Assembly: GCF_001904745.1 (NCBI RefSeq)
Contig: NZ_MRCD01000026.1
Coordinates: 1-64,000, forward strand
Direction: 5' to 3'
DNA length: 64,000 bases
Source of the DNA: Calothrix sp. HK-06
GTDB taxonomy: Bacteria; Cyanobacteriota; Cyanobacteriia; Cyanobacteriales; Nostocaceae
The notes under the pieces are model-generated. The model was given only the letters and a program-made list of their open reading frames with translations, ran no database searches and was not told the DNA's origin. The position numbers and the translations under genes were made by a program. This document shows, one piece after another, positions 1-64,000 of this stretch. Position 1 is the stretch's first letter. Every line of letters begins with the position of its first letter.

Positions 1-3000
1 AAAAGTCATATTTTCAACTTTGCCTTGATACGTTTTAAATTCTACTAATTGCTTTCCGGAATCAGTATCCCAAATTCTAACAGTGCCATCATCTCCAGAG
101 GTGGCAAGTTGTTTATTTTTATAACCAAAATTAAGCGTGTTGACCCTGCCTTTATGCCCTTCAAGTATTTGCAAAATTTCACCTTTGCTGCTCCATAACT
201 TAACGAGACCATTATTATCACCTGTGGCAATAATTTTATCATCTGAGCTAAATCGAAAGTTTTTGATGTTTTCATCAGGCAGCAGTAATGGATGCATAGA
301 TTCACTATTAAGATTCCATAGCTTTACTGTGCCATCTTTTCCAAGAGTACCGATTACTTTTGTATTGTGATACTCTCCAAAATTAATACTCGTGATTCCA
401 TCTTGTTCGGTGTGAATTGGTTTTTTAAATGATTTAATTTCAAGTTTATTATCAATTTGCCAAATTTTAAGCCAATCGTCTTTTCCACCTGTAGCAATCA
501 ATCTTCCATCTGGACTAAAACGGACGCTCTGAATAGTACTTTCAGCATCAAACTCTTTTAAATATTTTCCCTCTCGATTCCACAAAATTACTTTACCATC
601 CTCAAAAGAAGTGGCAATTAATTTACCATCTTTGTTAAAGCGGATACTAGAAACAGCACTACTTTGGCGCCGTGTTAGTTTAGTTAGTGGCTTCTCTTGA
701 AGGTTCCACAACCTGATGGTACTATCCTCTTTTCCAACTGTAGCAAGTATTCTTTCATCGTTTGGATTAAAACGAATACTTTCAATACTGCCCTGATGCG
801 CTCTAAATTCTTTCAAAAGCTCGCCATTTAAGTTCCACGTTTTAAGTGTTCCGTCTTGACCAGATGTAACTAATTTTTTATCACCTTTGCTAAAACGAAC
901 AGTTTCAGTACTGCCTTGATTAGCTCTAAACTTAACTTTTTCTTGTCCTAATAAATCCCAAAGTCTAACTGTACCATCTTCTCCTGCTGTCGCTATTGAA
1001 GTAGCACTATTACTAAATTGCACACTGTTAACAGAACCTTGATGACCTTTAAATTCTGCCAACAACGCTCCATTTAAATCCCATAGTTTAGCTGTACCAT
1101 CCTCACTTGATGTTACAAGTTGTTGACCATCGCTACTAACGCTAAGGCTTTTGATACTCTTGTTATGAGCCTGGAATTCTTTTTCTTGGCGCCCTAATAA
1201 ATTCCAAAGTCTGATGGTACCATCATCTCCAGATGTAACAATTAGTTTTCCGTCTGGAGTAAAACGAACATGGTTAACACTACCCTGATGACCTTTAAAT
1301 ATTGCTAGCAGTTTCCTTTCTCCTGCTAAATACTTTTTGGCATCCCACAATTTTGCCGTACCATCGCTTCCTGCTGTCGCAATATACTTCTCATCTAAGC
1401 TAAAACGAACACTTTTAACGGCATTATTTTCGTGAGCTTTAAATTCTTCAGGTAAATTTTTTCCAGATAAATCCCATAGTTTTATAGTACCGTCCTTTCC
1501 ACCTGTAGCGAGTGTTTTACCATCTTTATCAAAACTGACGCTGTTAATACCATCTTGATAAGTTTCAATTTGGTTTGTTTGGTTAATACTATCTAGAATT
1601 GTTTGCAGAACAAGTAGTGGACTAACTGCTAAATATTTTTCTGTTGAGCGACTATTTGTAATAAAGCTTAATGGCTCTTTGATTAAATCTTGCAGTTCTT
1701 GCCCGGTTTGCATTGCTGCTAATAAAGCTTCTATCTGTACAAATTCAAACTGTTGCAAAGCTGTGTAACCTGCCCGCTCAAGTTTTGTTGCTTTAGCTTC
1801 TTGCTGTTGCCATACTGTTCCCCATGCCAAGCTTAATGCTAAAAATAGTCCAAAAACTAATCCAGCAATAATACTTCTTCTTTGATATTTCTCCTTCTGT
1901 TGTTGTCCTATACTTTTCTTAATAAATAGCTGCTGCGGTTTACTAATTTCTGCACTACGTTTATGTAAGTAGTCTTCTGCTGCTGCTAAAGGCGCCCCCC
2001 TTAATAAAGCTCCATTATCCTGTTTACTATCTATCCATTGCTGCAACGCCAGTTTTAAGCCTTCTTGCCAAGTGCGAAACTTACGGTTCTCGTGCATCCA
2101 ACCACTCAGGCGCCCCCAATGTTGAATTAATGCTTCATGCACAAGTTCCACAGTTTCTTCAAAAGTTGACTCATTTCTATTGGTTACAACCAAACGTTCG
2201 GATGCTAAATATATAATCAAATCCCAATTTCCATCTAATACATCCTCGCGCGTTGCTAACTTGCGGGTATCTTCTGTTCCTTCTCCAGGTTGCACCAACT
2301 GAATAAAAATCTGTTGCGCTTTTTTTTGTTGTTCCTCGTTCAAACAAGTGTAAACAGCTTCAGCATAATTAGCCAGCGCTTGCTCAACTCCTCCGATTTT
2401 TTGATATGCTTGATACGTCAAACGTCCTGATTGTTGCTGCTTCCATAGTTGAGTCAGTGTAAACTCTAATAATGGTAGGCGCCCTTCTCCGTCTTGAATA
2501 TGATTAATTATTGTTTGGCATAAACCTGGCTCGAACTCAAAGCCTAACTTAGTTGCAGGTAATGTGATAGCGCGCTTTAATTCTTCAGTATTCATCCGTA
2601 CAACTAGTTCTTGCTGATACTCTTTGAGTACTTTACCAAATGGTTCATAGTCAAGTAATTTACTCAAAAAGTCTATGCGTAGAGTCAGTACTACTGTATA
2701 AAGTGATGAATTATTTATTGCATCTAATAAAGTATCTAGAAAGATTTTGCGTTCAAATGTATCTGTGCAGAGAGTGAAAATTTCTTCAAATTGGTCTATA
2801 ACGAGTAAAAGTCGATGGTTAGATGAAGCGTTATTATGTTCTAATGCCTGCGTTAAAGAGTTTAAAGGATTTTTGAGAGGACGGAACGATATTATTTGCC
2901 AGTTATTTACATTACAAGAGCGTAGCTGAGGAATTAAACCAGCAAATACTAGTGACGACTTACCACTACCAGAGGCGCCGACAACAGCAACTAATGGTTT

Positions 3001-4191
3001 ACTATTAACAGCAGCTACTAAATCAGATGTAGCTTCTTCTCTACCAAAAAAGTATTGAGCATTTTTTTCGCTAAATGCAGCTAACCCTTGGTAAGGGCAA
3101 AACGAAATTATACCTAAACTTTGCCAGGTTGGTGGTGTTTCTGTTTGATTTTGGATAATTACAGGTAGCCAACTTGCACAAGGAAATTTTTGCTCTTGTT
3201 TCCGTAATAGTTGACGTGCGTTTTTTACAGAAGCATACAACGACTTCCCGCTTGTGAAATGTAATAAAAAAGATTTTAAAAAAATTTGTGCCACTTTATC
3301 AGGAACGGGTTCACGCATAACAATTACTTGGGGAATATGTAATTGTTCTAACTCGTAAGCAATACCTAAGCCATCACAAGAATTAAAAAATGCTATTTGT
3401 AATCGCTTTTTAATCGCAACTTGTAAAGCATTATTTAGTTCTCCCATCGTCAAACTGTCGTAACTATTTATAAAAATCCGGCCACTCATAGTTCCCTGGT
3501 TATGAGTCTGCGAATGTCCAGAGAAAAAGAGAATATCCCAACCAATATCATCTTGCAGTTGGTGTATTAAATCGTGACGCGAAGGCTGTTTAAGTAAAAC
3601 AATTTCTGCCTCACCGCAATATTTTTCCAATTCAGCTTTATCAGCATCAACATTTATTCCCGTAGTATCACCCAGAATAATCAAAATTCTAATTTTTTCT
3701 CGTAATGGTCGTTCACCCCGTTTCGCATTTGGCGAACTCAAAGCCACTTCTGCTTGTGTATACTTATTTATGGCGCCCCACAAATGCCAAGGTAGTTGAC
3801 GCAGTTCATGACAAGAGCTACAAATTATAACTCTAACTTCATCGTGATTTTGCAGATTAAATTCTTTCAGACAAGTAATAATAGGGCTAAAATCTTCTGA
3901 ATTTAACCAGTAATTAAAATTCTTTAATAAACTCTGTGATTTGGTTTTAAAGTCTTTATTAAGCGATTCAATATTTACGCTTCTACTATTAATCGCTTTA
4001 ATCCTAAAATCACTATACTGACCCTGATAGATAGTTTGCCAATCTAAGAGCAAAGATTTTAGAGTCATATTTGCAGGTAATTTAGCTGTAACCGTGCGAT
4101 AAGCTCGTTCTGCTTCATTGGCAATTTCTAAATTTACATTAAATCCACTATCGAAATCACCACTGAACTTAATAAGTATTAATTTCTGCAT
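1..4191 (-). CDS. CHAT peptidase - nSTAND ATPase - WD40 repeat protein (C-terminus beyond window)
   Basis: The minus strand is open from about 4239 to the left edge, so the 3' end lies outside. Domains in order: a CHAT caspase-like domain with a catalytic His in FFSGHS (about 3510-3530) and Cys in NSCDG (about 3370-3385); an nSTAND/AAA NTPase with Walker A GASGSGKSS (about 2955-2985) and Walker B LLLVIDQFEE; a helical linker; one transmembrane helix (about 1845-1905); then at least 12 WD40 repeats ending in DGTxxLWD-type motifs, with a thirteenth started at the edge. I chose ATG 4191 (MQKLILIKF), which begins at the conserved strand of these proteins; ATG 4239 is in frame and would add 16 residues. 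Neither has a clear ribosome binding site. The family is thought to work as a signal-sensing STAND switch coupled to proteolysis, possibly in cell death or defence; that role is inferred from architecture only. Confidence 0.93.
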   Translation of the reverse strand, partial: MQKLILIKFSGDFDSGFNVNLEIANEAERAYRTVTAKLPANMTLKSLLLDWQTIYQGQYSDFRIKAINSRSVNIESLNKDFKTKSQSLLKNFNYWLNSEDFSPIITCLKEFNLQNHDEVRVIICSSCHELRQLPWHLWGAINKYTQAEVALSSPNAKRGERPLREKIRILIILGDTTGINVDADKAELEKYCGEAEIVLLKQPSRHDLIHQLQDDIGWDILFFSGHSQTHNQGTMSGRIFINSYDSLTMGELNNALQVAIKKRLQIAFFNSCDGLGIAYELEQLHIPQVIVMREPVPDKVAQIFLKSFLLHFTSGKSLYASVKNARQLLRKQEQKFPCASWLPVIIQNQTETPPTWQSLGIISFCPYQGLAAFSEKNAQYFFGREEATSDLVAAVNSKPLVAVVGASGSGKSSLVFAGLIPQLRSCNVNNWQIISFRPLKNPLNSLTQALEHNNASSNHRLLLVIDQFEEIFTLCTDTFERKIFLDTLLDAINNSSLYTVVLTLRIDFLSKLLDYEPFGKVLKEYQQELVVRMNTEELKRAITLPATKLGFEFEPGLCQTIINHIQDGEGRLPLLEFTLTQLWKQQQSGRLTYQAYQKIGGVEQALANYAEAVYTCLNEEQQKKAQQIFIQLVQPGEGTEDTRKLATREDVLDGNWDLIIYLASERLVVTNRNESTFEETVELVHEALIQHWGRLSGWMHENRKFRTWQEGLKLALQQWIDSKQDNGALLRGAPLAAAEDYLHKRSAEISKPQQLFIKKSIGQQQKEKYQRRSIIAGLVFGLFLALSLAWGTVWQQQEAKATKLERAGYTALQQFEFVQIEALLAAMQTGQELQDLIKEPLSFITNSRSTEKYLAVSPLLVLQTILDSINQTNQIETYQDGINSVSFDKDGKTLATGGKDGTIKLWDLSGKNLPEEFKAHENNAVKSVRFSLDEKYIATAGSDGTAKLWDAKKYLAGERKLLAIFKGHQGSVNHVRFTPDGKLIVTSGDDGTIRLWNLLGRQEKEFQAHNKSIKSLSVSSDGQQLVTSSEDGTAKLWDLNGALLAEFKGHQGSVNSVQFSNSATSIATAGEDGTVRLWDLLGQEKVKFRANQGSTETVRFSKGDKKLVTSGQDGTLKTWNLNGELLKEFRAHQGSIESIRFNPNDERILATVGKEDSTIRLWNLQEKPLTKLTRRQSSAVSSIRFNKDGKLIATSFEDGKVILWNREGKYLKEFDAESTIQSVRFSPDGRLIATGGKDDWLKIWQIDNKLEIKSFKKPIHTEQDGITSINFGEYHNTKVIGTLGKDGTVKLWNLNSESMHPLLLPDENIKNFRFSSDDKIIATGDNNGLVKLWSSKGEILQILEGHKGRVNTLNFGYKNKQLATSGDDGTVRIWDTDSGKQLVEFKTYQGKVENMTF

Positions 4192-4239
4192 AGGCAATAC
4201 CAAATTTGTAATATTATCATCCCAAAGATAGATTGACAT

Positions 4240-4777
4240 AAAATGCTAATCTGTATAGGCGCCGGATTAACCTAATAACCCTAAACTCTAATACAAATTT
4301 AATTACAGCTTTTATGCAAAATGGAAAAAATCCCCCTTTAATACAGCTTTTTAAGGGTAGTACTTCATGTGGCGCCGCCAGTTGCTTGACCCTACACGGT
4401 AGCCAAGTGCCCAAGTAATTGATTTATTATTTTCGATGATGTCCTATTAGTAACTGTTGTAAGAGTTGGGCATCGTAGAAAAGTTTATCGTGACGAGTGA
4501 GTTTTATACCCATATAAACATATATATGGCTACATTTACTTGATAGAAAGTGTGGCGCCGATAACTCTCTACAATGTATACTTCATAAGAGTTTATGCGT
4601 CTCTACAGGATTTCTCTCTGTGTACTCTGTATCTCTGTGGTCAAAATTATAACAATACACAGGCTTTCCGGCCTGTGCTACATGAAATGCTCAGGATATT
4701 TACTGTATTAGGTTGAGGGAACCTTAATTGAATGCTACCTTCTTTGTTGTGAGTGAGAAGCAACAACTAGGGGTTAT
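4240..4777. other. Intergenic stretch with dispersed repeats, no gene seen
   Basis: No convincing coding frame. It holds three GGCGCC palindromes, a CACAGGC/GCCTGTG hairpin at 4658-4677 and fragments of the CTCTGTG-type dispersed repeat around 4612-4640. The last ~60 bases presumably carry the promoter of the following oxidoreductase; no clear -10/-35 pair stands out. Confidence 0.6.
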
Positions 4778-6811
4778 ATGAATTGTATCAAAACTGTATC
4801 GCAGTTATCACTTGTTTGTTTGACGCTTGTTTCCAATATACTGGCGCCGTTCTCAAGTATAGCGGTGCCGTCTCGCAACCCAGATAGAACGGTAAACTGT
4901 GATATTTTGGTAGCTGGTGGGGGACTTTCGGGAGCGGCAACAGCATATGAGGGGTTGCTATTGGGGAAAACAGTATGTTTAACCGAAATTACCGACTGGT
5001 TGGGAGGACAAATTTCTTCGCAGGGTACCTCAGCGTTAGATGAACGTCCTACGCAACGAGCTAAACAATTTTACTCGCGTGGTTATTTAGATTTACGTAA
5101 TCGAATCGAAAAACGTTACAAAGGAGACCTTAACCCTGGTGACTGCTGGGTAAGTGATTCGTGTTTTTTACCCAAAGACGGACATGAACTTTTAACGGCA
5201 ATGCTTAAAGATGCCGCATCGCGTGGTGGAGGTAAGCTGGAATGGTTTCCGAATACGGTAATTAAAGAGTTAGAAAAGAGTGCAGATGGCAAAATTATTG
5301 ATAGTGTTTATGCTATTCAACACCAACCTATCAAAGGCGCCTCACCTATAAATACATTACGACTATCGCAAGTAATTGAAGACGCATATAGGTACGAAAA
5401 CTCGACAAACTTTACCAAAACTATTATTCGTTTCAACCCCAAACAAACCAAAATAGCGAATAATGCTCCTAAATGGTACGTTGTAGACACCACCGAAACT
5501 GGAGAACTAATTGGTCTTGCTGATGTTCCTTACCGTTTAGGTATTGACCCCCTATCTTATTTAGAACCTTCGTCTTCGAGTACCACCAACGACCAATACT
5601 GTACTCAAGGGTTTACTTATACGTTTGCGATGGAGTCAACTAAAGATGCACAACCGCAAACTAAACCAAGCTACTACGAGCAATATGCACCATACTTTAG
5701 CTACGAATTAAAGCGACTAGCTGATTTTGACTTGGTGTTTACATATCGTCGTATTTGGAGTCCTGGGCAAGGAAAAGAAAAAACTTTTGGTGGTGTCAAA
5801 TTTACAACTCCAACACCCAACGATATTTCGATGCAAAACTGGACTTGGGGTAATGACTACCGTCCAGGTACCGCACAAGATAATTTAATTTATACAAAGT
5901 CACAGCTACAAGCAACTGGACAGCTTAACCCAGGTGGTTGGATGGGTGGACTGCGAACTGAGTCATTGAGTAAAGCTGAAGAAAAGGCTTTTTCTTATTA
6001 TTACTGGTTAGTAGCGGGTACTACTGACTCTCAACTTGGTGATGGAGTCAAAGTGCCAGTACCTAATAATCGCTTTTTGTCAGGGTTTAATGCGCCAATG
6101 GGAACAGCGCACGGTTTATCGAAATATCCTTACATGCGTGAAGGACGGCGAATTATTGGGCGCCCTTCTTGGGGACAACCCGAAGGTTTTACAATTGCGG
6201 AAATAGATATATCGCGTCGCGACTATAGTGAAGAATACTATCGTAATACCTTACCTGCTGACATGTACCGCAGGTTACGCGCGGCACTTGCTGGTTTAGA
6301 AGCAGCATCGGTACTATCTGGAAAAGTTGACCCAAATAAAGCCATGCGACGAACTCGTTCTACGGTATTCCCTGACTCTATAGGTATAGGACATTACGCC
6401 ATAGACTTTCACCCATGTATGGAAAAAAGTCCACCAGAAGCACCGGGCAACCGCGAACGTCCTGGAGAAAGACGAGGCGCCGGACAGGCATATCCGTTCC
6501 AAATAGCACTGCGGGCAATGATACCTCAAAAAATCGATAACTTAATAGTCGGTGGTAAAAGTATTGCTACAAGCCATATAGCTGCTGCTGCATATAGAGT
6601 ACACTCATTTGAATGGTCAGCAGGCGCAGCAGCAGGTACAGTTGCAGCATTTTCCTTAAAAAATGGAATAGCACCATATCAAATGGTCGATGACTTACCA
6701 AGAGCAGAACCACAATTATTAAACCTGCAACAGATGTTAAAGCGAAACGGGAACCCCACCGCTTTCCCCGACACATCTATATTTAACCAAAACTGGCAAG
6801 ACTGGAAATAA
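4778..6811 (+). CDS. Exported FAD-dependent oxidoreductase
   Basis: 677 aa. An N-terminal signal peptide (about residues 1-30) is followed by a Rossmann dinucleotide-binding motif CDILVAGGGLSGAATAYEG (about 42-60) and a second family motif, GWLGGQ-like (DWLGGQ), which place it in the FAD_oxidored family (FAD-dependent oxidoreductases related to fumarate reductase flavoproteins). The C-terminal IDNLIVGGKSIATSHIAAAAYR is the second FAD-contacting segment with the conserved GGKS/S-H-A. The length is usual for the cyanobacterial members. Substrate unknown; the signal peptide suggests a periplasmic or thylakoid-lumen location. It stands alone, preceded by a long gap and followed by a CTTGTGG-type hairpin repeat at about 6815-6840. 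Confidence 0.88.
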   Translation: MNCIKTVSQLSLVCLTLVSNILAPFSSIAVPSRNPDRTVNCDILVAGGGLSGAATAYEGLLLGKTVCLTEITDWLGGQISSQGTSALDERPTQRAKQFYSRGYLDLRNRIEKRYKGDLNPGDCWVSDSCFLPKDGHELLTAMLKDAASRGGGKLEWFPNTVIKELEKSADGKIIDSVYAIQHQPIKGASPINTLRLSQVIEDAYRYENSTNFTKTIIRFNPKQTKIANNAPKWYVVDTTETGELIGLADVPYRLGIDPLSYLEPSSSSTTNDQYCTQGFTYTFAMESTKDAQPQTKPSYYEQYAPYFSYELKRLADFDLVFTYRRIWSPGQGKEKTFGGVKFTTPTPNDISMQNWTWGNDYRPGTAQDNLIYTKSQLQATGQLNPGGWMGGLRTESLSKAEEKAFSYYYWLVAGTTDSQLGDGVKVPVPNNRFLSGFNAPMGTAHGLSKYPYMREGRRIIGRPSWGQPEGFTIAEIDISRRDYSEEYYRNTLPADMYRRLRAALAGLEAASVLSGKVDPNKAMRRTRSTVFPDSIGIGHYAIDFHPCMEKSPPEAPGNRERPGERRGAGQAYPFQIALRAMIPQKIDNLIVGGKSIATSHIAAAAYRVHSFEWSAGAAAGTVAAFSLKNGIAPYQMVDDLPRAEPQLLNLQQMLKRNGNPTAFPDTSIFNQNWQDWK

Positions 6812-6947
6812 TCTCTTGTGGGATAGGCATCCTTGCCCGTCTCATAGTCCAGGAATGAACTAAACTAGTTATTTGTAGTTGTAAATTTGGAAAACACCAA
6901 AAGGCAAAATTTTACTTATGGTTACAAGACTCTTCTCGGTTTACGGC

Positions 6948-7241
6948 ATGGCGCCTGCACCTACTGTAACTCCTGAAAGGTCTAGTCAAGTCGTTAGCAA
7001 ACCTTATCCGAACTATAAAGTGATTGTTTTAAACGATGACTTTAACACCTTTCAGCATGTGGCTGAATGTTTGATGAAATATATTCCTGGTATGACTGGT
7101 GATTTGGCTTGGGACTTAACGAACCAAGTACATTACGAAGGTCTTGCCACAGTTTGGACTGGTCCCCTAGAACAAGCAGAACTATATCACCAGCAATTAC
7201 GTCGTGCTGGTTTAACAATGGCGCCCTTAGAAGCAGCTTAA
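6948..7241 (+). CDS. clpS: ATP-dependent Clp protease adaptor ClpS
   Basis: 97 aa from ATG 6948 (MAPAPTV); an in-frame ATG at 6918 would add ten residues, but the shorter form matches the usual length. The ClpS core is complete: YPNYKVIVLNDDFNTFQHV (substrate-binding strand with the NDD/T motif), then CLMKYIPGM and the HYEG motif with a conserved His. ClpS docks on the N-domain of ClpC/ClpA and delivers N-degron substrates to ClpP. The stop is only 8 bases before the next gene, so the two are almost certainly co-transcribed. Very confident on family; start moderately sure. Confidence 0.95.
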   Translation: MAPAPTVTPERSSQVVSKPYPNYKVIVLNDDFNTFQHVAECLMKYIPGMTGDLAWDLTNQVHYEGLATVWTGPLEQAELYHQQLRRAGLTMAPLEAA

Positions 7242-7249
7242 ATAAAACA

Positions 7250-7543
7250 ATGGAAAAACCCTCCCCTGGCAGACTAGTCTGGAACCACTCTACCCATATA
7301 CCGGGACTCATACCAATATTAGAACGTTTATGTAAACTTGACGGCATTGTTACCGTTACTCCGGGTGTCATTGGACGTTCTAAAGGTCACTGTCCTAGTC
7401 TGCAAATACGTATCTCAGTGCCGATACGGGGAGGTTTTAAAGCCATTGCCCGTCAAGGGAAAACCGTACAGGAAGTATTTATTTTAACCGAGTTGGAAAA
7501 AGAACAGTTAGAGAGCGCAATCGCTGTAGCAATGAGAAAGTAA
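7250..7543 (+). CDS. DUF2103 family protein (putative metal-binding)
   Basis: 97 aa from ATG 7250 (MEKPSPGRLVWNHSTH). The same frame stays open upstream to 7109 inside clpS, but the start just after the clpS stop is the natural one. Visible features are an N-terminal WNHSTHIPGL segment with two His, a basic RSKGHCP segment with a Cys and His, and a C-terminal helix. The family is annotated as a predicted metal-binding protein in cyanobacteria; the His/Cys residues fit, but the function is unknown. The tight coupling to clpS suggests a shared operon. Confidence 0.8.
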   Translation: MEKPSPGRLVWNHSTHIPGLIPILERLCKLDGIVTVTPGVIGRSKGHCPSLQIRISVPIRGGFKAIARQGKTVQEVFILTELEKEQLESAIAVAMRK

Positions 7544-7556
7544 TAGTTTCGGTTAA

Positions 7557-7880
7557 TTACTCTTCAACTTCTTCGTGGACTGCAAATCTGTGTAGTGGTA
7601 AACTTACAATGCACGAGAACGTTAAGAAATATGACAAAGCTGTTGTAATTTTTAGTGTCGTAGCTACATTTTCCCAGTCAGGAAGAACAAGCTTTTGAAT
7701 ACCGAAAGCCATGCAGTATACTAGCCAATAAGTAAAGCTCATTCTAAATAAGATTCGCTCGGTTTCTACTGCTTCGTTCCCTTCTGGCTTCACGTTCCAA
7801 AGTAGCGCTAATCCTGCGATACAAGCTAGAAAAGACAGTGCAACAACAAACTCATGGCAAAGTAAACTTGATAAACACAT
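7557..7880 (-). CDS. Small hypothetical membrane protein
   Basis: 107 aa, convergent with the clpS operon (14 bases between stops). Hydropathy by eye gives three membrane helices: about residues 10-28 (VVALSFLACIAGLALLW), 48-66 (SFTYWLVYCMAFGI) and 79-98 (TTALSYFLTFSCIVSLPL). The loop between helices 1 and 2 is acidic. No family recognised. The coding bias resembles its neighbours, so I take it as real. Confidence 0.65.
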   Translation of the reverse strand: MCLSSLLCHEFVVALSFLACIAGLALLWNVKPEGNEAVETERILFRMSFTYWLVYCMAFGIQKLVLPDWENVATTLKITTALSYFLTFSCIVSLPLHRFAVHEEVEE

Positions 7881-8054
7881 TTTTACTTATCCTAATTTTT
7901 TTGATTTTTTATCAGTCTATAGGATGATAGTTTCAAACGCCAAAAAATAGTTACAAACTGCAATATTCAGTTAAATAAGTACAAACAGAACTAATAAAAT
8001 CATGAACCATTCGTCAAGCGTATAAGAAAGATATTTACATTAATTAATAAATCA

Positions 8055-8121
8055 AAGAAACCTGGTTTCTACCCAAAATCGTCGTTTTCATTACAATTTT
8101 TCATAAAGAAACCAGGTTTCT
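8055..8121. repeat. Doublet of 17-bp near-palindromes (REPIN-like), copy 1
   Basis: AAGAAACCTGGTTTCT, then ~35 bases, then AAGAAACCAGGTTTCT. The centre base is T in the first copy and A in the second, so the second is the reverse complement of the first and the whole unit is an inverted repeat. The spacer carries an ATCGTCNTTTTCATTACA-like core that recurs in the 55758 copy. Confidence 0.85.
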
Positions 8122-8171
8122 ACGGTTTCTGTTACAATCCTTAACATTCTAACAAGGAACACGACAGAATC

Positions 8172-8660
8172 ATGACCGATATTGTTCAACCAAGTACAAA
8201 AGCACCCTTATTTTCGGCGCCAAATCAAAATGGCGAAACAGTGAGTCTAAGTGATTTTGAGGGTAAATGGCTGGTAATATACTTTTATCCAAAGGACGAC
8301 ACACCTGGTTGCACTACCGAAGCCAAAGATTTTAGTGCTTATATTGACGACTTTAGTAAGTTGGGAGCAACGATAATAGGTGTTAGTACCGACTCACAAA
8401 AGTCACACTGTAAGTTCATCGATAAACATAATTTAACCATTACTCTACTAAGCGACCCAGAACATCAAGTTGCTGATGCTTTTGGTGTATGGCGCCTTAA
8501 AAAGTTTATGGGTAAAGAATATATGGGTATCGAGCGGTCTACGTTCATAATATCTCCCGACCAGAAAATTGCTTATACTTGGACAAAAGTTAAAACCAAA
8601 GACCATGCACAAGCAGTTTTAAAGCAATTGCAGGTTTTAGAAACCGGGTTTCTTGGTTGA
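8172..8660 (+). CDS. bcp: Peroxiredoxin, Bcp/PrxQ type
   Basis: 162 aa thioredoxin-dependent thiol peroxidase. The active-site segment FYPKDDTPGCTTEAKDF gives the peroxidatic Cys47 with the conserved P-T-x-x-C framing (here TPGC). The Cys five residues later found in E. coli Bcp is absent (Lys here); instead Cys80 sits in the next helix (KSHCKF), as in the PrxQ group that forms a Cys47-Cys83-type disulfide. It reduces H2O2 and organic peroxides. Oddity: the last codons (ETGFLG) are encoded by the first half of a GAAACCGGGTTTC repeat, so the repeat inserted at or over the original 3' end. Confidence 0.93.
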   Translation: MTDIVQPSTKAPLFSAPNQNGETVSLSDFEGKWLVIYFYPKDDTPGCTTEAKDFSAYIDDFSKLGATIIGVSTDSQKSHCKFIDKHNLTITLLSDPEHQVADAFGVWRLKKFMGKEYMGIERSTFIISPDQKIAYTWTKVKTKDHAQAVLKQLQVLETGFLG

Positions 8661-8710
8661 TAGCCTGTAATAAAAACAACGATTTATTTTGCTGAAAAAC
8701 CCGGTTTCTT
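8639..8710. repeat. REPIN-like doublet, copy 2 (overlaps peroxiredoxin 3' end)
   Basis: AGAAACCGGGTTTCTT at 8639-8654 and AAAAACCCGGTTTCTT at 8695-8710, centre bases G and C (reverse complements). The spacer (TGTAATAAAAACAACGATTT) looks like the reverse complement of the copy-1 spacer, so this copy lies in the opposite orientation. The first arm codes for the end of the peroxiredoxin; the second lies just before the aldehyde dehydrogenase start. Confidence 0.85.
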
Positions 8711-8717
8711 GTCTTTA

Positions 8718-10133
8718 ATGGAAAAATCAATTGAAGTTCGTAACCCCAGGACAGGGAAATTTGATTACATAATAATACCGCCTCCGCAAAAACTTTTGGC
8801 ACAACAATGTCAACGAATGCGGAGGGCACAAGCGCGTTGGTTAGCTCTAGGTATAGAAGGACGAATAGAAGCGTTACAAAGCTGGAAGCAATATATTATC
8901 AAAGCACGTGAGAAGTTAATCGATGCTTTAATTGTAGATACTGGACGATTATCTATGTCAGTGTTTGAGGTTGACTGGTTAATTGCTAGCATCGACCGTT
9001 GGTGTATGAAGGCGCCTAGATTATTGCGCGTGAACGAGTATGATACTTCGGTTAGCTACATTAACTTACAGCAAACAGCAGAACCATATCCTTTAGTAGG
9101 AGTAATTAGTCCGTGGAGTTTTCCATTACTGTTGTCTACAGTTGATACTATTCCCGCATTGCTTGCTGGATGTGCGGTTATTGTAAAACCCAGTGAAATC
9201 GCACCCAGATTTATGGCGCCTATACAAGCTACACTCAATAATATTCCTCAACTACGCGATGTTCTTAGTTTTGTGGAAGGTGGTGAAGAAACAGGAGCTT
9301 TTTTACTCGAATGCGTCGATGTGGTATGCTTCACAGGAAATATAGAAACAGGGCGAAGCGTATTTGAAAAAGCAGCAGAGCAATTTATTCCAGCTTATTT
9401 AGAATTAGGTGGCAAAGATCCAGCAATAGTTTTAGAATCTGCCGACTTAGACTTAGCAACATCAGCGATATTATGGGGAGCAGTGGTCAACAGTGGACAA
9501 TCATGTAACTCAATAGAACGAATTTATGTAGCTTCCTCAATCTTCGAGAAATTTTACCATCAACTCATAACCAAAGCGCATCAACTGCAATTTGCACACC
9601 CAACCATTGAAAGTGGCGAACTTGGGCCAATCATCGCCGCCAAACAAGCTATAATTATCTCCGAACATTTACAAGATGCAAAAGTTGCGGGAGCAGTAAT
9701 TCATTGTGGTGGAATAGAAAACATTAATGGTGGTTGGTGGTGTCGTCCGACAGTATTAACGGAAGTTGACCACACAATGAAAGTAATGACCGAAGAAACC
9801 TTTGGGCCAATCATGCCCGTGATGGCATTTAAAACTGTAGAAGAAGCGATAAACTTAGCAAACGACTCAATATATGGTAACGGCGCCGCAGTATTTGCTT
9901 CAGAAGAACACGAAGCTTCCTCAGTAGCACAGCATATACACACCAGCACAGTCAGTATAAACGATGCCAGCCTAGCCATAGCCATCCCCGAAGGAGAAAC
10001 AAATGCATTTAAATTTTCAGGAATAGGAGAAAGACGTTTCGGCGCCGCCGGCTTAACCAGATTCCTATGTAAAAAAAACCTATTCATTAAAACCAAACCC
10101 ATCCACAACCCCTGGTGGTTCAACTCACCGTAG
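8718..10133 (+). CDS. Aldehyde dehydrogenase family protein
   Basis: 471 aa from ATG 8718 (MEKSIEV); an upstream in-frame TTG at 8709 lies inside the repeat and is unlikely. The NAD(P)-dependent ALDH fold is complete: GVISPWSFPL (nucleotide-binding region, about 128-137), VIVKPSE (155-161), FTGNIETGR (205-213), general-base Glu229 in AYLELGGKD, and catalytic Cys263 in NSGQSCNSIERI. EETFGPIMPV is the conserved C-terminal motif. It oxidises an aldehyde to the acid. Substrate not readable; fatty-aldehyde or apocarotenal roles known for cyanobacterial relatives are possible. It may be read through from the peroxiredoxin gene. Confidence 0.92.
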   Translation: MEKSIEVRNPRTGKFDYIIIPPPQKLLAQQCQRMRRAQARWLALGIEGRIEALQSWKQYIIKAREKLIDALIVDTGRLSMSVFEVDWLIASIDRWCMKAPRLLRVNEYDTSVSYINLQQTAEPYPLVGVISPWSFPLLLSTVDTIPALLAGCAVIVKPSEIAPRFMAPIQATLNNIPQLRDVLSFVEGGEETGAFLLECVDVVCFTGNIETGRSVFEKAAEQFIPAYLELGGKDPAIVLESADLDLATSAILWGAVVNSGQSCNSIERIYVASSIFEKFYHQLITKAHQLQFAHPTIESGELGPIIAAKQAIIISEHLQDAKVAGAVIHCGGIENINGGWWCRPTVLTEVDHTMKVMTEETFGPIMPVMAFKTVEEAINLANDSIYGNGAAVFASEEHEASSVAQHIHTSTVSINDASLAIAIPEGETNAFKFSGIGERRFGAAGLTRFLCKKNLFIKTKPIHNPWWFNSP

Positions 10134-10164
10134 GTTGGGTGGAGCGCACAGCGCGCAACCCAAC
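10134..10164. repeat. GTTGGGT...ACCCAAC inverted repeat
   Basis: GTTGGGT at 10134-10140 pairs with ACCCAAC at 10158-10164 around a GC-rich loop. Similar units occur at 26979-27001 and about 44601-44630. It follows the aldehyde dehydrogenase stop and may slow or end transcription before hisS, although no U-tract follows. Confidence 0.6.
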
Positions 10165-10189
10165 ATAAATTTATATAGAATTACTCACC

Positions 10190-11584
10190 ATGTCCAAACA
10201 AGAAAAAGTAAACTTTACCACACCAAGCGGCTTCCCCGAATTCCTCCCCACAGAAAAACGCCTAGAAGTACACCTACTAGACACAATACGTCGAGTATAC
10301 GAAAGCTACGGGTTCACACCAATAGAAACACCAGCCGTAGAACGCCTAGAAGTACTACAAGCCAAAGGCAACCAAGGCGACAACATCATCTACGGAATCT
10401 CCCCAATCTTACCTCCCAACCGTCAAGAAGAAAAAGACAAAGCCGAAAAAGGCAGCGAAACAGGAACAGAAGCGCGCGCATTAAAATTTGACCAAACAGT
10501 ACCCTTAGCTGCATACATAGCGCGTCACCTCAACGACTTAACATTTCCCTTCGCACGCTATCAAATGGACTTAGTATTTCGCGGTGAACGTGCCAAAGAT
10601 GGACGCTTTCGCTCATTTCGTCAATGCGATATCGATGTGGTCGGGCGCCGGGAATTAAGTTTATTGTATGATGCCCAAATGCCAGCAATTATTACAGAGA
10701 TATTTGAGGCAATTAACATTGGTGATTTTCTCATACGTATCAATAATCGTAAAATACTCACAGGGTTTTTCCAATCGGTAGGAGTCGAAGCAAGTAAAAT
10801 AAAAGCTTGCATCGGTATAATTGACAACTTAGAGAAAATAGGCGAAGCAAAAGTCAAGCAAGAATTAGATAAAGAAGGTATTGCCACCGAAGGCGTCGAT
10901 AAAATTATAGAATTTATTAAAATTAAAGGTTCTGTCACAGAGATGCTCGATAAATTAAAGCATCTAAGTGAGTCAATGCCAGAAGCAGAACAATTTAAAT
11001 TAGGTGTAACCGAACTTGAAACAGTTATTACAGGAGTTCGTAATTTAGACGTCGCAGAAAACAGGTATTGTATAGATTTATCAATCGCACGGGGATTAGA
11101 TTACTATACAGGAACAGTTTATGAAACTACTTTAATTGGACATGAAGCGCTAGGCAGTATTTGTTCTGGTGGTAGATACGAAGAATTAGTAGGGGTATTT
11201 TTAGGTGAGAAAATGCCCGGTGTTGGTATTTCCATTGGTTTAACTCGTTTAATAAGTCGTTTACTCAAAGCTGGTATTCTTTCACCACTACCTGCAACAC
11301 CTGCCCAAGTTATGGTAGTTAATATGCAGGATGATTTAATGCCTGTATATTTAGATGTGTCGCAGAAATTGCGTAAAGCGGGACTGAATGTTATTACAAG
11401 TTTTGACCAGCAAAAGCTAGGTAAACAATTTCAGTTGGCAGAAAAACAGGGAATTCAATTTTGTGTGATTATTGGTTCTGAAGAAGCGCAACAGCAAAAA
11501 GCAGCTTTGAAGAATTTGAAGACGCGCGAGCAGGTAGATATCGCTATTAATGACCTAGCTGCTGAGATTAAAAAACAACTTTAG
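10190..11584 (+). CDS. hisS: Histidyl-tRNA synthetase
   Basis: 464 aa class II synthetase that charges tRNA-His in the cytoplasm. Seen: N-terminal TPSGFPEFLP; motif 2 YQMDLVFRGERA...RSFRQCDID; the HisRS signature ARGLDYYTGTVYE; GGRYEELVG; motif 3 PGVGISIGLTRL; and a C-terminal anticodon-binding domain (about 370-464). Residues ~80-95 carry a charged insertion (RQEEKDKAEKG). Base composition changes inside the gene: the first ~370 bases use mainly A/C-ending codons and very little T, whereas the rest is T-rich. Confidence 0.97.
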   Translation: MSKQEKVNFTTPSGFPEFLPTEKRLEVHLLDTIRRVYESYGFTPIETPAVERLEVLQAKGNQGDNIIYGISPILPPNRQEEKDKAEKGSETGTEARALKFDQTVPLAAYIARHLNDLTFPFARYQMDLVFRGERAKDGRFRSFRQCDIDVVGRRELSLLYDAQMPAIITEIFEAINIGDFLIRINNRKILTGFFQSVGVEASKIKACIGIIDNLEKIGEAKVKQELDKEGIATEGVDKIIEFIKIKGSVTEMLDKLKHLSESMPEAEQFKLGVTELETVITGVRNLDVAENRYCIDLSIARGLDYYTGTVYETTLIGHEALGSICSGGRYEELVGVFLGEKMPGVGISIGLTRLISRLLKAGILSPLPATPAQVMVVNMQDDLMPVYLDVSQKLRKAGLNVITSFDQQKLGKQFQLAEKQGIQFCVIIGSEEAQQQKAALKNLKTREQVDIAINDLAAEIKKQL

Positions 11585-11587
11585 CCC

Positions 11588-11655
11588 AAGAAACCTGGTT
11601 TCTTTTTCACTGAACATTACAATCTTCACCATTACCAAAAGAAACCAGGTTTCTC
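11588..11655. repeat. REPIN-like doublet, copy 3
   Basis: AAGAAACCTGGTTTCTT at 11588-11604 and AAGAAACCAGGTTTCT ending at 11654/11655, again with complementary centre bases. The spacer contains CACTGAACATTACAATCTTC, which matches in inverted orientation the spacer of the copy at 13058-13125. It starts four bases after the hisS stop. Confidence 0.85.
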
Positions 11656-11746
11656 ACTGCAAATGAATAAACTGGCAACGTATACAACGGATGTAACGGA
11701 TAAGTTATTTGTTACAAATAGATATTGATTATTTAAGTTTTTGTTT

Positions 11747-11911
11747 ATGAAACTAGACAAAATCCATCTTAAAGAAACTGAGAATATTGTAGAGGCGTAT
11801 AATCCTATCCCGCCAAAGCGTTCAGAGCGGGTAACTATGCGTGCCCAGTTTAAAGGGCGTGGTAAACCTCTACCATATCCAATAGATGAAGGAATTAAAA
11901 AAGGGAATTAA
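11747..11911 (+). CDS. Small hypothetical protein (54 aa)
   Basis: ATG 11747 to TAA 11911; the protein begins MKLDKIHLKETENIVEAY and ends PYPIDEGIKKGN. It is basic in the middle (PPKRSERVTMRAQFKGRGK). The stop is two bases before the next ATG, a coupled two-gene arrangement typical of small regulatory or toxin-antitoxin pairs, though neither protein matches a family I know. Confidence 0.55.
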   Translation: MKLDKIHLKETENIVEAYNPIPPKRSERVTMRAQFKGRGKPLPYPIDEGIKKGN

Positions 11912-11913
11912 AA

Positions 11914-12183
11914 ATGTCATCAGAAATTTATCAACCTACACCCGAACAACTAGAGCGCTGGGCAAAACGCGACGAACTTGATAAATACGCCTTTGCGGGT
12001 ATTATGTCAGAGTCCGAGCAAGAACTTCATGTTAAAAAATTTCTCGATAAAAACTATTACCATCATCATCTTGCTCAAGTTCGTGCCAATAAACAAAAGC
12101 TGCTAAAAGACCTTGAATATCTAGAACAACGTGAACAGCTACTGATAGAGCAAATCAATAAACAAGAACAATCTTCACAATAA
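11914..12183 (+). CDS. Small hypothetical protein with C-terminal coiled coil (89 aa)
   Basis: The N-terminal half is acidic (TPEQLERWAKRDELDKYAF), followed by a His-Tyr cluster YYHHHLAQ at about 50-57 and a Leu/Glu/Gln-rich coiled coil to the end (KQKLLKDLEYLEQREQLLIE). No family recognised. It probably forms an operon with the 54-aa gene 2 bases upstream. Dimerisation through the coiled coil is a guess. Confidence 0.6.
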   Translation: MSSEIYQPTPEQLERWAKRDELDKYAFAGIMSESEQELHVKKFLDKNYYHHHLAQVRANKQKLLKDLEYLEQREQLLIEQINKQEQSSQ

Positions 12184-12268
12184 TAGAGACTCACCCCAAG
12201 TATCAGGACTCAATAAGTTTAAACTAATGAGTGGAACAGGCATCCCTGCCCGTCCTATATACAGCAGC

Positions 12269-23239: not shown

Positions 23240-23241
23240 AT

Positions 23242-42431: not shown

Positions 42432-44456
42432 ATGGCTGTTGCAACCCAAACCCCCACCAAGACCCTAGAAGAAATTTGTATTAACTCGATTCGCTTTTTG
42501 GCAGTCGATGCCGTAGAAAAAGCAAAGTCTGGACACCCAGGACTGCCAATGGGCGCCGCTCCAATGGCATTTGTACTCTGGGATAAATTCATGCGGGTTA
42601 ATCCCAAAAATCCAAAGTGGTTTAACCGCGACCGTTTCGTATTGTCCGCAGGTCACGGGTGTATGTTGCAGTATGCACTGCTATACCTAAGTGGATTTGA
42701 TAGCGTGACGATAGAGGATATCAAGCAGTTTCGTCAATGGGGGTCACGCACCCCTGGACACCCAGAAAACTTTGAAACAGCAGGTATAGAAGTTACTACC
42801 GGACCATTAGGACAAGGTATTGCTAATGCAGTCGGTTTAGCAATGGCAGAAGCTCACCTAGCAGCAAAGTTCAACAAACCTGATGCCAAAATCGTTGACC
42901 ACTACACCTACGTAATACTAGGTGATGGTTGTAACATGGAAGGGGTTTCTGGTGAAGCGTGTTCTTTTGCAGGACACTTGGGATTAGGCAAACTAATAGC
43001 TCTGTACGACGATAACCACATCTCAATCGATGGTTCTACAGATGTAGCATTCACTGAAGACGTTTCTAAGCGTTTTGAAGCATACGGTTGGCATGTACTA
43101 CACGTCGAAGATGGTAATACAGATTTAGAAGGAATTGCAAAAGCAATTGAAGAAGCAAAATCTGTAACAGATAAGCCTTCGATGATTAAGGTGACAACAA
43201 CCATTGGTTATGGTTCACCCAACAAGCAAAACACTGCTGGTGTTCACGGCGCCGCATTAGGTGGTGATGAAGTTGCGCTTACCCGTCAAAATTTAGGTTG
43301 GGAGCATGAGCCTTTCGTAGTGCCTCAAGATGCTCTCGACCACATGCAAAAAGCTATTGAGCGTGGCGCCAAAGCCGAAAGCGAATGGAACAAAGCTTTA
43401 AGTGACTATAAAGCAAAGTATGCTTCTGAAGCTGCTGAATTTGAGCGTTACATTAGCGGCAAACTTCCTGATGGTTGGGAAAAGGTATTACCTACCTACA
43501 CTCCTGAAGATAAAGGTGTTGCAACTCGTAAACATTCAGAAACTTGTCTTAACAAATTAGCAACAGTACTACCTGAGTTAATTGGTGGTTCGGCTGACTT
43601 AACCCACTCCAACTTGACCGAAATTAAAGGTAAAGGCGACTTCCAAAAAGGACATTACGAAAACCCCAACGTTCACTATGGTGTACGTGAACATGGTATG
43701 GGCGCCATTGTTAATGGTATGGCACTGCATGGTTCAGGCTTAATTCCTTACGGTGCAACCTTCTTAATTTTCACCGACTACATGCGTGCAGCTATCCGTT
43801 TATCTGCTTTATCCGAAGCTGGGTCAATATGGGTAATGACTCACGACTCAATTGGACAAGGTGAAGACGGACCAACACACCAACCAGTCGAAACAATTGC
43901 TTCATTACGCGCAATTCCTGAACTCACAGTAATTCGTCCTGCTGATGGTACCGAAACTTCAGGCGCCTATAAAATCGCAATTGAAAAATCAAAAGCTAAC
44001 GCTCCTACATTACTAGCCTTCACCCGTCAAAACGTACCTAACTTAGCAGGTACATCGATTGAAGGAGTAACAAAAGGCGCCTACACAATTGTAGATAGCG
44101 AAGGAACACCAGATATTATCTTAATTGGTACAGGTTCCGAAGTTAGCCTTTGTGTTACCGCAGCAGAAAAACTCACCAGTGAGGGTAAGAAAGTTCGTGT
44201 AGTTTCAATGCCTTCTTGGGAATTATTTGAAGCTCAAGATGACAATTACAAAGAATCAGTTCTTCCCAAAGCTGTCACCAAGCGAGTATCTGTAGAAGCA
44301 GGTGTAAGCTTCGGTTGGCACAAATACGTTGGTACCGAAGGCGCCACTGTTAGCATCGACACATTCGGTGCATCGGCGCCTGGTCCAGTTTGTATGGAAA
44401 AATTCGGATTCACCGTTGACAACGTACTCGCAACAGCCAAAAAAGTACTAGGCTAA
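42432..44456 (+). CDS. tkt: Transketolase
   Basis: 674 aa, ThDP-dependent. [11 protein letters not shown] and HCxxQY-like [15 protein letters not shown] at the N-terminus; ThDP/Mg motif [41 protein letters not shown]-domain catalytic Glu region [35 protein letters not shown] with conserved His. It moves two-carbon units in the Calvin cycle and pentose phosphate pathway. Length typical, frame intact. Confidence 0.97.
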
Positions 44457-56772: not shown

Positions 56773-56892
56773 TTGCTCTTGTGGGGTGGCCATCTTGCCC
56801 GCCCTTCTATATATCTTTGCCTGACTATATGTAAGGGGGCGGGTTTAGATGGATTTTGGGTTTTGTTGTGTGTTATGGGTTAACCCGCCCCT
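56773..56892. repeat. Two dispersed hairpin repeats
   Basis: CTTGTGGGGTGGCCATCTTG with CCCGCCC at about 56775-56803, and GGGGGCGGGTTTA.../TAACCCGCCCCTAC at about 56836-56892. The second runs into the 3' end of the outer-membrane protein gene. Confidence 0.65.
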
Positions 56893-57568
56893 ACGGTATC
56901 AACATCCATTCTAATATTATGCCGATGCGACTGTCTTTGTTTCGGCGCCCGTTTTGTTGTTCTATGTCTGTGGATATTCTCAGTTTGCGTGTGATTGCGT
57001 AACCTACTGATAATTTTGTTAATCCTATTTCTTCGTTTGATGCTGGCGCCACCCAAGTTTGTGTTAAGGATATATCTCCACCACCGGAACGGGATAGTAC
57101 TAGTAATAGTTTGGCGCCAACAGAAACGCCGTTGGTAGAATAGTTTTCTCCGGATATGTGACGATAACCTAAAACTGGCGCCACGTTTATATAATTGCCT
57201 AATGGACGTAGGTAGTAGTTTATTTCTCCACCATAGTTGGTGTGTTTACCGTTGAATGTTGTGTAGTATTCGCCGCTAATTGTTAATCTGGTTTTGTCTA
57301 CGACAATATCTTCGGCGCCTATTTTTATTCCTCCCCCATTTGTTGGAAAATAACCAAAACGTAATCGTGAACGAAAACTAGGGTCGTTTCTAATTTCTTC
57401 TAATACGTTAGGTAGTTGACGGCGCCATCTTTGTAAAACTGGACTATCTTTAATAATTTCTGGACTCAAATCTAAATCTTGGGCATTTGTTGAAGGCGTT
57501 TGGGCTAAGGCTGGTTTTCCACTTATATATAAGCATAGAAAAACTAATACGGTTACATACTTATTCAT
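56891..57568 (-). CDS. Outer-membrane beta-barrel protein, unknown function
   Basis: 225 aa. Signal peptide MNKYVTVLVFLCLYISGKPALAQ. The mature part alternates polar and hydrophobic residues in strands (LTISGEYYTTFN, GEINYYLRPLG, VAPVLGYRHISGE, LSVGYAITRKLRISTDIEQ), and the last strand GIILEWMLIP ends the barrel. No named family recognised. Six GGCGCC sites fall inside or just after this short gene. Confidence 0.7.
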   Translation of the reverse strand: MNKYVTVLVFLCLYISGKPALAQTPSTNAQDLDLSPEIIKDSPVLQRWRRQLPNVLEEIRNDPSFRSRLRFGYFPTNGGGIKIGAEDIVVDKTRLTISGEYYTTFNGKHTNYGGEINYYLRPLGNYINVAPVLGYRHISGENYSTNGVSVGAKLLLVLSRSGGGDISLTQTWVAPASNEEIGLTKLSVGYAITRKLRISTDIEQQNGRRNKDSRIGIILEWMLIP

Positions 57569-62118: not shown

Positions 62119-62413
62119 AAAGCGATTGCGCCACCTACCTAACAATCCGCTTGCACACCAATCGTATCAAGATAGTTAGTTGAGAACGAAAGGTTAGTAG
62201 CCACGGGTGAAGCGGAACGTAAGATGGCTTCAACACTTCCGGTTTCAACCTTGAACCTTTTGCGAGGTGATTGTTAAATAGCAGGACATCGCGATCGTAT
62301 TTCAGATATCTCAGTGAGGGCAGCCAGCTAATTAGGATTTTATTTACAGTTCTAGGTTCAGCTTTTGAAATGTTTCACCTATTGGAGTGTTCAGAACTTT
62401 TGCCTTCATAGCA
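62119..62413. other. Intergenic, nothing distinctive
   Basis: No gene or clear repeat. One GCGATCGT at about 62290 is the nearest thing to a HIP1 octamer seen in the window. Confidence 0.4.
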
Positions 62414-63239: not shown

Positions 63240-64000
63240 TTAAACGAGTACTTGTTGCCATTCGAGACGGTCTAAAGTACGTGAGCGTTCTAGTGCTTGT
63301 TCAAAGCTATCAAGTTTCGCTTCGATTGTGAAGGGTTCGCCGATATAACCTTGAACTGCTTCTTGGGTCTTCAAACCGTTACCAGTGATGTAAACAACAG
63401 TTGTTTCGTCTGGGTCAATTTTACCTGCTTCGACTAATTTCTTCAGCACGGCAACGGTTGTACCACCAGCAGTTTCGGTAAATATACCTTCGGTTTCAGC
63501 TAATAACTTGATACCTTCAATAATTTCTGCGTCGGTGACAGATTCAATATTACCATTTGTTTTGTTCGCAATATCAACGGCGTATACACCATCCGCAGGA
63601 TTACCAATAGCTATCGATTTTGCAATTGTGTTTGGTTTGACTGGTTTAATAAAGTCGCGTTTTTCTCTGAATGCTTCTGCTATTGGTGAACATCCTTCTG
63701 CTTGGGCGCCACTAAAACGAACGTTCTTATCTTCTACCAAACCAACTTCAACAAATTCTTTAAATCCTTTATATATCTTAGTAAACAATGAACCACTTGC
63801 AAGCGGCGCCACAATATGGTCAGGTAATTCCCAGCCTAATTGTTCAGCAACTTCATAACCAAGTGTCTTAGAACCTTCTGAATAATAAGGACGTAAATTT
63901 ATATTGACAAATCCCCAACCATGTGTGTTTGCAACTTCTGAACACAAACGGTTAACTTGGTCGTAGTTACCATTAACAGCCATTAAAGTTGGGCTATATA
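63240..64000 (-). CDS. thrC: Threonine synthase, C-terminal part (5' end beyond window)
   Basis: The frame is open to the right edge ([25 protein letters not shown]). PLP fold type II features: [24 protein letters not shown] (phosphate-binding GSG loop), [41 protein letters not shown]. The PLP Lys lies upstream, outside the window. It makes threonine from O-phosphohomoserine. The Met at 63983 is internal, not the start. Confidence 0.9.

Follow-up and report, generated by a model that had tools for sequence, protein, structure and literature searches.

GGCGCC is an alternate highly iterated palindrome throughout one Nostocales genus, with a candidate solitary methyltransferase

The filling of cyanobacterial genomes with a single palindrome has been a puzzle since the 1990s. 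The highly iterated palindrome (HIP) HIP1, GCGATCGC, has been tied to orphan methyltransferases (MTases). Here we analysed a stretch of 64,000 bases of Calothrix sp. HK-06 (the window), together with the rest of its genome and its relatives, with respect to another palindrome, GGCGCC. Both words are GC-rich palindromes, and HIP1 occurs about once per kb in most genomes of the family. GGCGCC, in contrast, is a different word without the GATC core, and HIP1 is very rare in the genus to which HK-06 belongs.

GGCGCC has been reported as the alternate HIP of Calothrix PCC 7103, where it replaces HIP1 (Elhai 2015, PMC4390886). The same source gives it as the alternate HIP in 19 kb of Calothrix D253, a strain known as HIP1-poor from Robinson et al. 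1995 (cited in PMC4390886). According to the parts of the 2015 paper used here, PCC 7103 carries two GrCGyC MTases, the second of which is considered critical, and the other three GrCGyC forms are rare there. The sites are proposed to be made by G-meC-directed mismatch repair, and HIP1 loss is ascribed to a GATC-specific nuclease together with a CGATCG-specific one that is now non-functional. Exceptional HIPs are said to ‘occur sporadically, not in clades’, and the methylated position of GGCGCC was not known to the author (PMC4390886). Among the matches listed in the open-access literature, no later work on GGCGCC in cyanobacteria was found by title or abstract.

Our results agree with what these parts of PMC4390886 describe in the word itself, in low HIP1 and GATC and in candidate MTases of the GrCGyC type, and PCC 7103 belongs to the same genus as HK-06. 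Whereas one genome and 19 kb of D253 are treated there, we find GGCGCC shared by seven of seven genus genomes; the state is clade-wide, so the observation of sporadic occurrence does not hold in this genus. A GATC nuclease is invoked there for HIP1 loss, whereas we find HIP1 retained in non-genus carriers of DpnII. The MTase of which a second copy is considered critical there was found in a single copy in two genus members, and a mutation footprint points to the inner cytosine as the place of the methyl group, which is left unplaced there. New beyond that paper are the genus-wide persistence of GGCGCC and the finding that a DpnII-type GATC nuclease alone does not accompany HIP1 loss.

GGCGCC and HIP1 in the window, the genome and the genus

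By exact count the window holds 116 GGCGCC sites, one per 552 bases, where base composition (A+T 61%) predicts 3.4 (Poisson P about 7e-131). HIP1 was counted zero times, and the single CGATCG lies within GCGATCGT at 62291. These figures bear out the preliminary description of the window, which had given about 115 sites by hand count, a random expectation of a few, no HIP1 octamer and a nearest approach to it near 62290. As it had also stated, the sites lie in both genes and gaps; in a larger set of 282 coding and 39 noncoding sites the density is 2.03 per kb in coding and 1.05 per kb in noncoding DNA, both far above the roughly 0.05 per kb that base composition predicts. An A/T-rich shoulder, which it had seen on many sites, was not recovered: the five flanking positions are 61-66% A+T, which compares with 61% for the window itself.

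The whole genome of HK-06 (9,990,453 bases in 243 contigs) contains 15,449 GGCGCC and 6 copies of the reversed control CCGCGG, which is itself an avoided word. HIP1 is not abundant elsewhere in the genome either, with 88 copies against 66 of its reversed control. Hexamer statistics were taken from 456 kb of this genome, consisting of the window and 20 further stretches. GGCGCC is the most over-represented hexamer there, with 764 sites against 35.5 expected from a second-order Markov model (21.5-fold), so the excess noticed in the window also stands against a Markov expectation. Under the same model the other GRCGYC forms are scarce (GACGTC 3 against 28; GGCGTC and GACGCC jointly 20 against 63). 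The scarcity of GACGTC is not a mark of the swap, as it is equally strong outside the genus, where 9 sites were found against 73 expected in 75 loci. A first-order model gives 1,044 expected GATC and 843 expected GGCC, of which 128 and 125, respectively, were found.

The survey covered 217 genomes of the family, comprising seven genus members and 210 others. The genus is the clade of Calothrix PCC 7103 (G061) and Dulcicalothrix desertica, the latter represented by PCC 7102 (G060). It further contains HK-06 (G000), Calothrix NIES-4105 (G062), the metagenome-assembled genomes C42_A2020_038 (G063) and Calothrix sp. FI2-JRJ7 (G064), and a seventh member, G065. GGCGCC was counted 7,475-20,380 times in each of the seven, compared with 0-1,053 times in the 210 others, and in the highest of the latter the reversed control is even commoner (1,270). 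The density in the six other genus genomes is about 1,150-1,710 per Mb, within the HIP-class range of about 1000-2000 per Mb. HIP1 occurs 31-163 times in the seven genomes (between 0.6 and 4 times its reversed control). In the 210 others the range is 30-8,803, the value of 30 coming from a 3.2-Mb genome that is 88% complete. GGCGCC was also followed through transketolase loci, by which alone genera beyond the family were covered. Among the 80 named loci kept, only those of five relatives have 1.4-2.0 GGCGCC per kb and zero HIP1, and the remaining 75 have 0-4 GGCGCC each. These five are identical to the window transketolase at 100% over the best segment (FI2-JRJ7), 99% (PCC 7102), 99% (PCC 7103), 97% (NIES-4105) and 96% (C42_A2020_038).

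By word count, GGCGCC is thus an alternate HIP: a GC-rich palindrome that is grossly over-represented in genomes with very low HIP1. This state is common to the whole genus and not to one strain. Because all seven genus genomes are rich in GGCGCC and none of the 210 others has a comparable count, the swap is not sporadic, and because genus members diverge at up to 19% of bases in aligned stretches, it is old. Like HIP1, an alternate HIP can last throughout a clade. The suggestion of the preliminary description that GGCGCC stands in place of HIP1 therefore holds as a replacement of words, since all seven sister genomes are GGCGCC-rich and HIP1-poor and none of the 210 others is comparable; the idea itself had already been published (PMC4390886).

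A candidate methyltransferase, a nuclease not found in the genus and the loss of HIP1

At E 1e-60, an m5C MTase (PF00145), here called MTase A, was found in all seven genus genomes and in 55 of the 210 others. A tree of the 30 best loci unites the best copies of the seven genus genomes in one clade (100/99); in this tree HK-06 is represented by its copy on contig C60, and more distant second copies of several genus genomes were left out. Within the clade the ratio of nonsynonymous to synonymous substitution (dN/dS) is 0.05-0.17, and the five m5C motifs looked for are all present in the seven copies (for HK-06, the C60 copy). The best copy adjoins the same RuBisCO-like gene in all six relatives (three of them Pfam-scanned), and the opposite flank carries one gene family in five of these six loci, GHL10 in both that were scanned. 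PCC 7102 and C42_A2020_038 have only one copy at E 1e-60. The chromosomal gene of HK-06 lies in two pieces, one at an end of contig C29 and one at an end of C207 (L019 1-317, L020 36-290), and an intact gene of the same clade lies on C60.

Outside the genus, 15 of 23 fetched MTase A loci have an adjacent open reading frame (ORF) of one family, which was RE_HindVP in all four that were scanned. Genome-wide, RE_HindVP was found over the cut-off in none of the seven genus genomes and in 42 of the 210 others, several of them in pieces (in one further genome, G185, it is below the cut-off). Judged from sequence, the genus MTase A is a solitary MTase and not a restriction-modification (R-M) system, which makes it a candidate for the solitary methyltransferase that the preliminary description had proposed to look for. 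It shares family and motifs with the MTase of the HindVP-type (GRCGYC) R-M systems of other Nostocales. The genus differs from these in having no detected nuclease and in being enriched in GGCGCC, which is avoided in R-M carriers. Among non-genus genomes, the median GGCGCC count is 5 with MTase and nuclease (39 genomes), 6 with the nuclease alone (3 genomes), 61.5 with the MTase alone (16 genomes, range 2-277) and 37.5 with neither (152 genomes). The difference between carriers of both and of neither has a p of 2e-7, by a statistic that ignores kinship and genome size. The HindVP target, which we take to be GRCGYC, agrees with these counts because genomes with nuclease and MTase have fewer GGCGCC. 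Loss of the nuclease goes with weaker avoidance of GGCGCC, but alone it does not give thousands of sites.

Other MTases of HK-06 were also considered. MTase C (contig C229, 411 aa) was rejected as the GGCGCC enzyme; it was not found in C42_A2020_038 at E 1e-60, is truncated in two other genus members and is present in 37 of the 210 others. MTase D (C211, 370 aa) is present in all seven genus genomes and also in 161 of the 210 others, and so is not specific to the swap. For MTase B (C29, 658 aa), the matches listed include one of its size only in PCC 7102, PCC 7103, NIES-4105 and C42_A2020_038. The N4/N6 MTases of HK-06 were listed and Pfam-scanned.

Several observations concern the surroundings of MTase A. 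The GHL10 family that flanks it in the genus recurs beside a diverged MTase A at one locus outside, L187 of G142, a genome with 14 GGCGCC (compare L160-L165), so that this locus could predate the genus. On C60 (L021 7169-11479) there are two tandem MTase A-type genes, one without its first part, next to an ORF matching DpdA (deoxypurine in DNA; PF23859) and an ORF that by eye resembles a replicative helicase; this region is perhaps a mobile or plasmid element. Distant MTase A copies at L310 2525-3277 (contig C2 of NIES-4105) and L314 6802-7680 (contig C2 of G065) also lie near an ORF that looks DpdA-like by eye, so that MTases of this type seem to be accompanied repeatedly by a DpdA-like gene. 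Near second MTase A copies (L311, L312 and L313) the density of GGCGCC rises to 3.0-3.7 per kb, roughly double the usual value; the site contexts shown there are nearly all single, and no repeat at sight explains the density.

With respect to HIP1, a DpnII nuclease (88-97% identical to that of HK-06) is found at one conserved locus with shared neighbours in all seven genus genomes, as is the MTase of this locus (86-97%). In 20-kb stretches around it, GATC is at 0.04-0.24 of expectation. DpnII was rejected as a sufficient cause of HIP1 loss, since 12 non-genus carriers keep HIP1. In seven of these 12 that were inspected, non-HIP1 GATC shows only a moderate reduction, to 18-42 sites, compared with 48-67 expected for all GATC. 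DpnII may have had a part in the loss of HIP1 but is not enough to account for it. GATC and HIP1 are also nearly lacking, and GGCGCC is absent, at two loci outside the genus, L055 (Scytonematopsis contorta) and L122 (Calothrix parasitica NIES-267). When palindromic hexamers present at least 8 times in the 22 kb were compared, no strong replacement was found in either, the top word reaching at most 1.3-fold in L055 and 3.3-fold in L122 (TCGCGA, 8 sites). These two are cases of HIP1 loss without replacement by GGCGCC.

Mutation footprint and the forces that may build the sites

Site turnover was followed by aligning the six relatives with BLAST to the window and to 112 kb of contig C211; coverage is lower for G065 and C42_A2020_038. 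Parsimony was used to assign gains and losses to the terminal branches of five members whose distances are similar (4.5-6.5%); site-lineage cells are not independent, and gene models are mechanical ORFs. GGCGCC was lost in 91 of 1,034 site-lineages: 31/227 in HK-06, 11/194 in FI2-JRJ7, 6/227 in PCC 7102, 31/227 in PCC 7103 and 12/159 in G065 (heterogeneity p 2e-5). Branch length explains part of this heterogeneity, because the losses of other all-GC hexamers vary likewise, with about 10% in HK-06, PCC 7103 and G065 and 7% in FI2-JRJ7 and PCC 7102. The losses are dominated by one type of change: 62 of the 91 are C3-to-T or G4-to-A. Compared with other NNCGNN words of 5-6 G+C, such central CpG transitions are more frequent (62/1,034 vs 67/2,902, odds ratio 2.7, p 7e-8), whereas all other losses are less frequent (29/1,034 vs 173/2,902, odds ratio 0.46, p 4e-5). 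Likewise, the central transition hit GCGC in 73 of 1,093 cases inside GGCGCC and in 36 of 1,187 elsewhere (p 5e-5). In the fetched sequence the deamination product GGTGCC/GGCACC stands at 1.3-2.3 of expectation in the seven genus genomes, compared with 0.42 in the 75 outside loci. This loss spectrum is the footprint expected of GG(m5C)GCC and suggests methylation of the inner cytosine.

Over longer times the sites are retained. Between HK-06 and C42_A2020_038 (18% divergence), Gly-Ala pairs that are conserved as protein and coded GGCGCC kept this coding in 63 of 93 cases, and other codings of the same dipeptide were unchanged in 22 of 72. The corresponding values are 92/113 vs 39/80 for NIES-4105 and 114/136 vs 75/111 for PCC 7103, so that conservation at synonymous positions, which the preliminary description had proposed to compare, is above that of other codings in all three comparisons. 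GGCGCC sites of C42_A2020_038 recur in at least one of five relatives in 115 of 129 cases, compared with 179 of 432 for other all-GC hexamers.

Starting from what is shown by the word counts, the spread of GGCGCC over the genus, the presence or absence of genes, the retention of sites and the mutation spectrum, we infer an account that, taken as a whole, we consider somewhat more likely than not. GGCGCC would have been adopted as an alternate HIP in the ancestor of one Nostocales genus and then inherited. The sites would represent one form, GGCGCC, of the GRCGYC sequence recognised by a solitary m5C MTase, left over from a HindVP-type R-M pair after nuclease loss and predicted to methylate the inner cytosine, giving GG(m5C)GCC. 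With the GRCGYC nuclease gone, GGCGCC would have been free to rise, and either selection or a repair bias directed by methylation (Elhai's G-meC model) would have turned its one-step neighbours into GGCGCC. HIP1 would have collapsed in the same ancestor along with nearly all GATC, for which the inherited DpnII is a likely but insufficient cause. The main leak would be C-to-T deamination at the methylated cytosine. We are more doubtful of a wider claim, which on balance we would not expect to hold: that the word content of the whole genus was rewritten by a restriction methylase left without its nuclease, whose mark turned near-misses into some 7,000-20,000 methylated sites per genome that are inherited despite deamination, and that HIPs generally are the trace of methylation-directed repair.

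A number of observations weigh against this account. The 12 non-genus genomes with near-full-length DpnII (among them G134, listed with 7% contamination, and G147, 85% complete) hold 1,973-7,545 HIP1. A solitary MTase is insufficient for the rise of GGCGCC, because the 16 non-genus genomes with MTase and no nuclease over the cut-off hold only 2-277 sites. The GRCGYC specificity of the genus MTase A is predicted from its family only. In HK-06 the first piece of the split gene does not follow the family in its catalytic PC motif, and the chromosomal gene may be broken, by insertion or as an assembly artefact. Part of the rise in GGTGCC could come from relaxed avoidance, as this word is low outside the genus. 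On terminal branches, total loss of GGCGCC equals that of other all-GC hexamers (8.8% vs 8.9%, 156/1,759 for the control) and is above it in HK-06 and PCC 7103; gains are fewer than losses (21 vs 91), whereas the control hexamers gained more than they lost (326 vs 156). Spacing is near-random, with a coefficient of variation of gaps of 0.94 (743 gaps) and a variance/mean of 0.96 (752 tiles of 2 kb); against an exponential, p is 6e-4.

Equal short-term and lower long-term loss fits either slow selective removal of losses or regeneration of sites. Elhai's model is a ratchet in which G-meC-directed mismatch repair turns near-misses into GGCGCC, the sites need no function and accumulation stops when no base is more than about 1 kb from a site. 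We regard this as possible, though less likely than not. The position of the methyl group suggested by the deamination footprint is the one that the model requires. When GGCGCC and HIP1 are masked, the pooled near-misses, GGTGCC excepted, stand at 0.56-0.70 of expected in the seven genus genomes, compared with 1.08 in the 75 outside loci, so that most near-miss neighbours seem to have been drawn into GGCGCC in the past. Against it, there is no depletion of near-misses that carry C or T as their second base (0.87-1.52; outside 1.45-1.60), and the excess of recent losses over gains means that the ratchet is not visible at work now. There is no sign of a coverage set-point or of coverage-dependent maintenance, a possibility that was rejected: spacing is near-random, and lost sites are no nearer another site than kept ones (median 184 vs 168 bases, p 0.54). 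A second MTase copy was not found at E 1e-60 in PCC 7102 and C42_A2020_038, yet PCC 7102 is among the higher densities. Selection for GGCGCC itself, for example as a nucleoid, replication, recombination or DNA-uptake mark, has a similarly modest chance of being what holds the sites. Synonymous conservation above other codings speaks for it, and equal short-term but far lower long-term loss is what weakly harmful losses would give. However, losses exceed gains on four of five terminal branches, the sites follow no spacing rule, no partner protein is known, and aligned noncoding sites number only 4-16 per comparison.

Codon or amino-acid bias towards Gly-Ala seems extremely improbable as the sole source of the word. 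It is true that 166 of 282 coding sites read GGC GCC, but 43 and 73 sites lie in the other phases and the noncoding density is far over expectation, which refutes such a bias alone. Moreover, of 247 Gly-Ala pairs that HK-06 and PCC 7103 have in common, 136 are coded by GGCGCC, one of 16 possibilities. A cost at the amino-acid level was also rejected, as outside the genus Gly-Ala under GGCGCC is conserved about as often as other Gly-Ala (721/940 vs 286/357 cells, with only 3 of 15 ORFs tried having more than one outgroup match).

A genus that has swapped the word, with near relatives for comparison, a candidate methyltransferase and a footprint of mutation, opens the question of why such palindromes fill genomes to testing. 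Individual genes can be set side by side, one site at a time, in GGCGCC users and HIP1 users, and loss of one enzyme should shift the direction of mutation.

Features of the window and further observations

The coordinates of the sites and of the features referred to above are collected in the table. The preliminary description had given eight sites in the transketolase gene and six in or beside the ORF at 56891-57568; both numbers were found again, and one further site adjoins this ORF at 57621.

Table. Features of the 64-kb window of Calothrix sp. HK-06 (site positions refer to the first G)
Feature	Position	Strand	Remarks
GCGATCGT	62291..62298	+	only CGATCG of the window; nearest thing to HIP1
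Transketolase gene (tkt)	42432..44456	+	Pfam transketolase domains; 8 GGCGCC; anchor for finding sister genomes
225-aa ORF	56891..57568	-	6 GGCGCC inside; no Pfam match at E 0.001
GGCGCC sites (whole window)	666, 1188, 1991, 2109, 2478, 2974, 3772, 4258, 4371, 4554, 4843, 5336, 6159, 6476, 6950, 7220, 8216, 8491, 9011, 9215, 9882, 10041, 10644, 12413, 13032, 13181, 13783, 14031, 14434, 14587, 15129, 15553, 16507, 16757, 17182, 18193, 19138, 19275, 19565		no strand
GGCGCC sites, continued	20689, 20825, 21185, 21221, 23359, 23374, 23527, 24484, 25033, 26050, 27286, 27545, 27621, 30041, 30098, 30149, 30772, 30812, 31295, 31923, 32381, 33090, 33445, 33921, 35393, 35800, 37231, 38177, 38497, 39516, 39723, 40359, 40456, 41534, 41831, 41915		
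GGCGCC sites, end of list	42110, 42552, 43248, 43365, 43701, 43962, 44076, 44340, 44375, 44660, 45476, 47936, 48077, 48258, 48807, 50994, 51262, 52609, 53095, 53207, 53359, 53532, 53743, 54487, 54709, 55225, 55468, 56099, 56944, 57045, 57113, 57177, 57314, 57421, 57621, 58981, 59794, 60859, 62778, 63705, 63805		exact count

Further palindromes are nearly absent from the 456 kb, namely TGCGCA (1 against 141 expected), GCATGC (1 against 69) and ACGCGT (2 against 77). GGCC is at 0.15 of expectation there, and CCGCGG occurs 1-8 times per genus genome. In the window, the region 45063-50335 contains a 265-aa ORF that matches part of an N6/N4 DNA methyltransferase and has a weak match, far below the cut-off, to the anti-phage family DUF1156. 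The same region holds a transposase ORF (46008-46997) and an AIPR-domain ORF (48926-50335).

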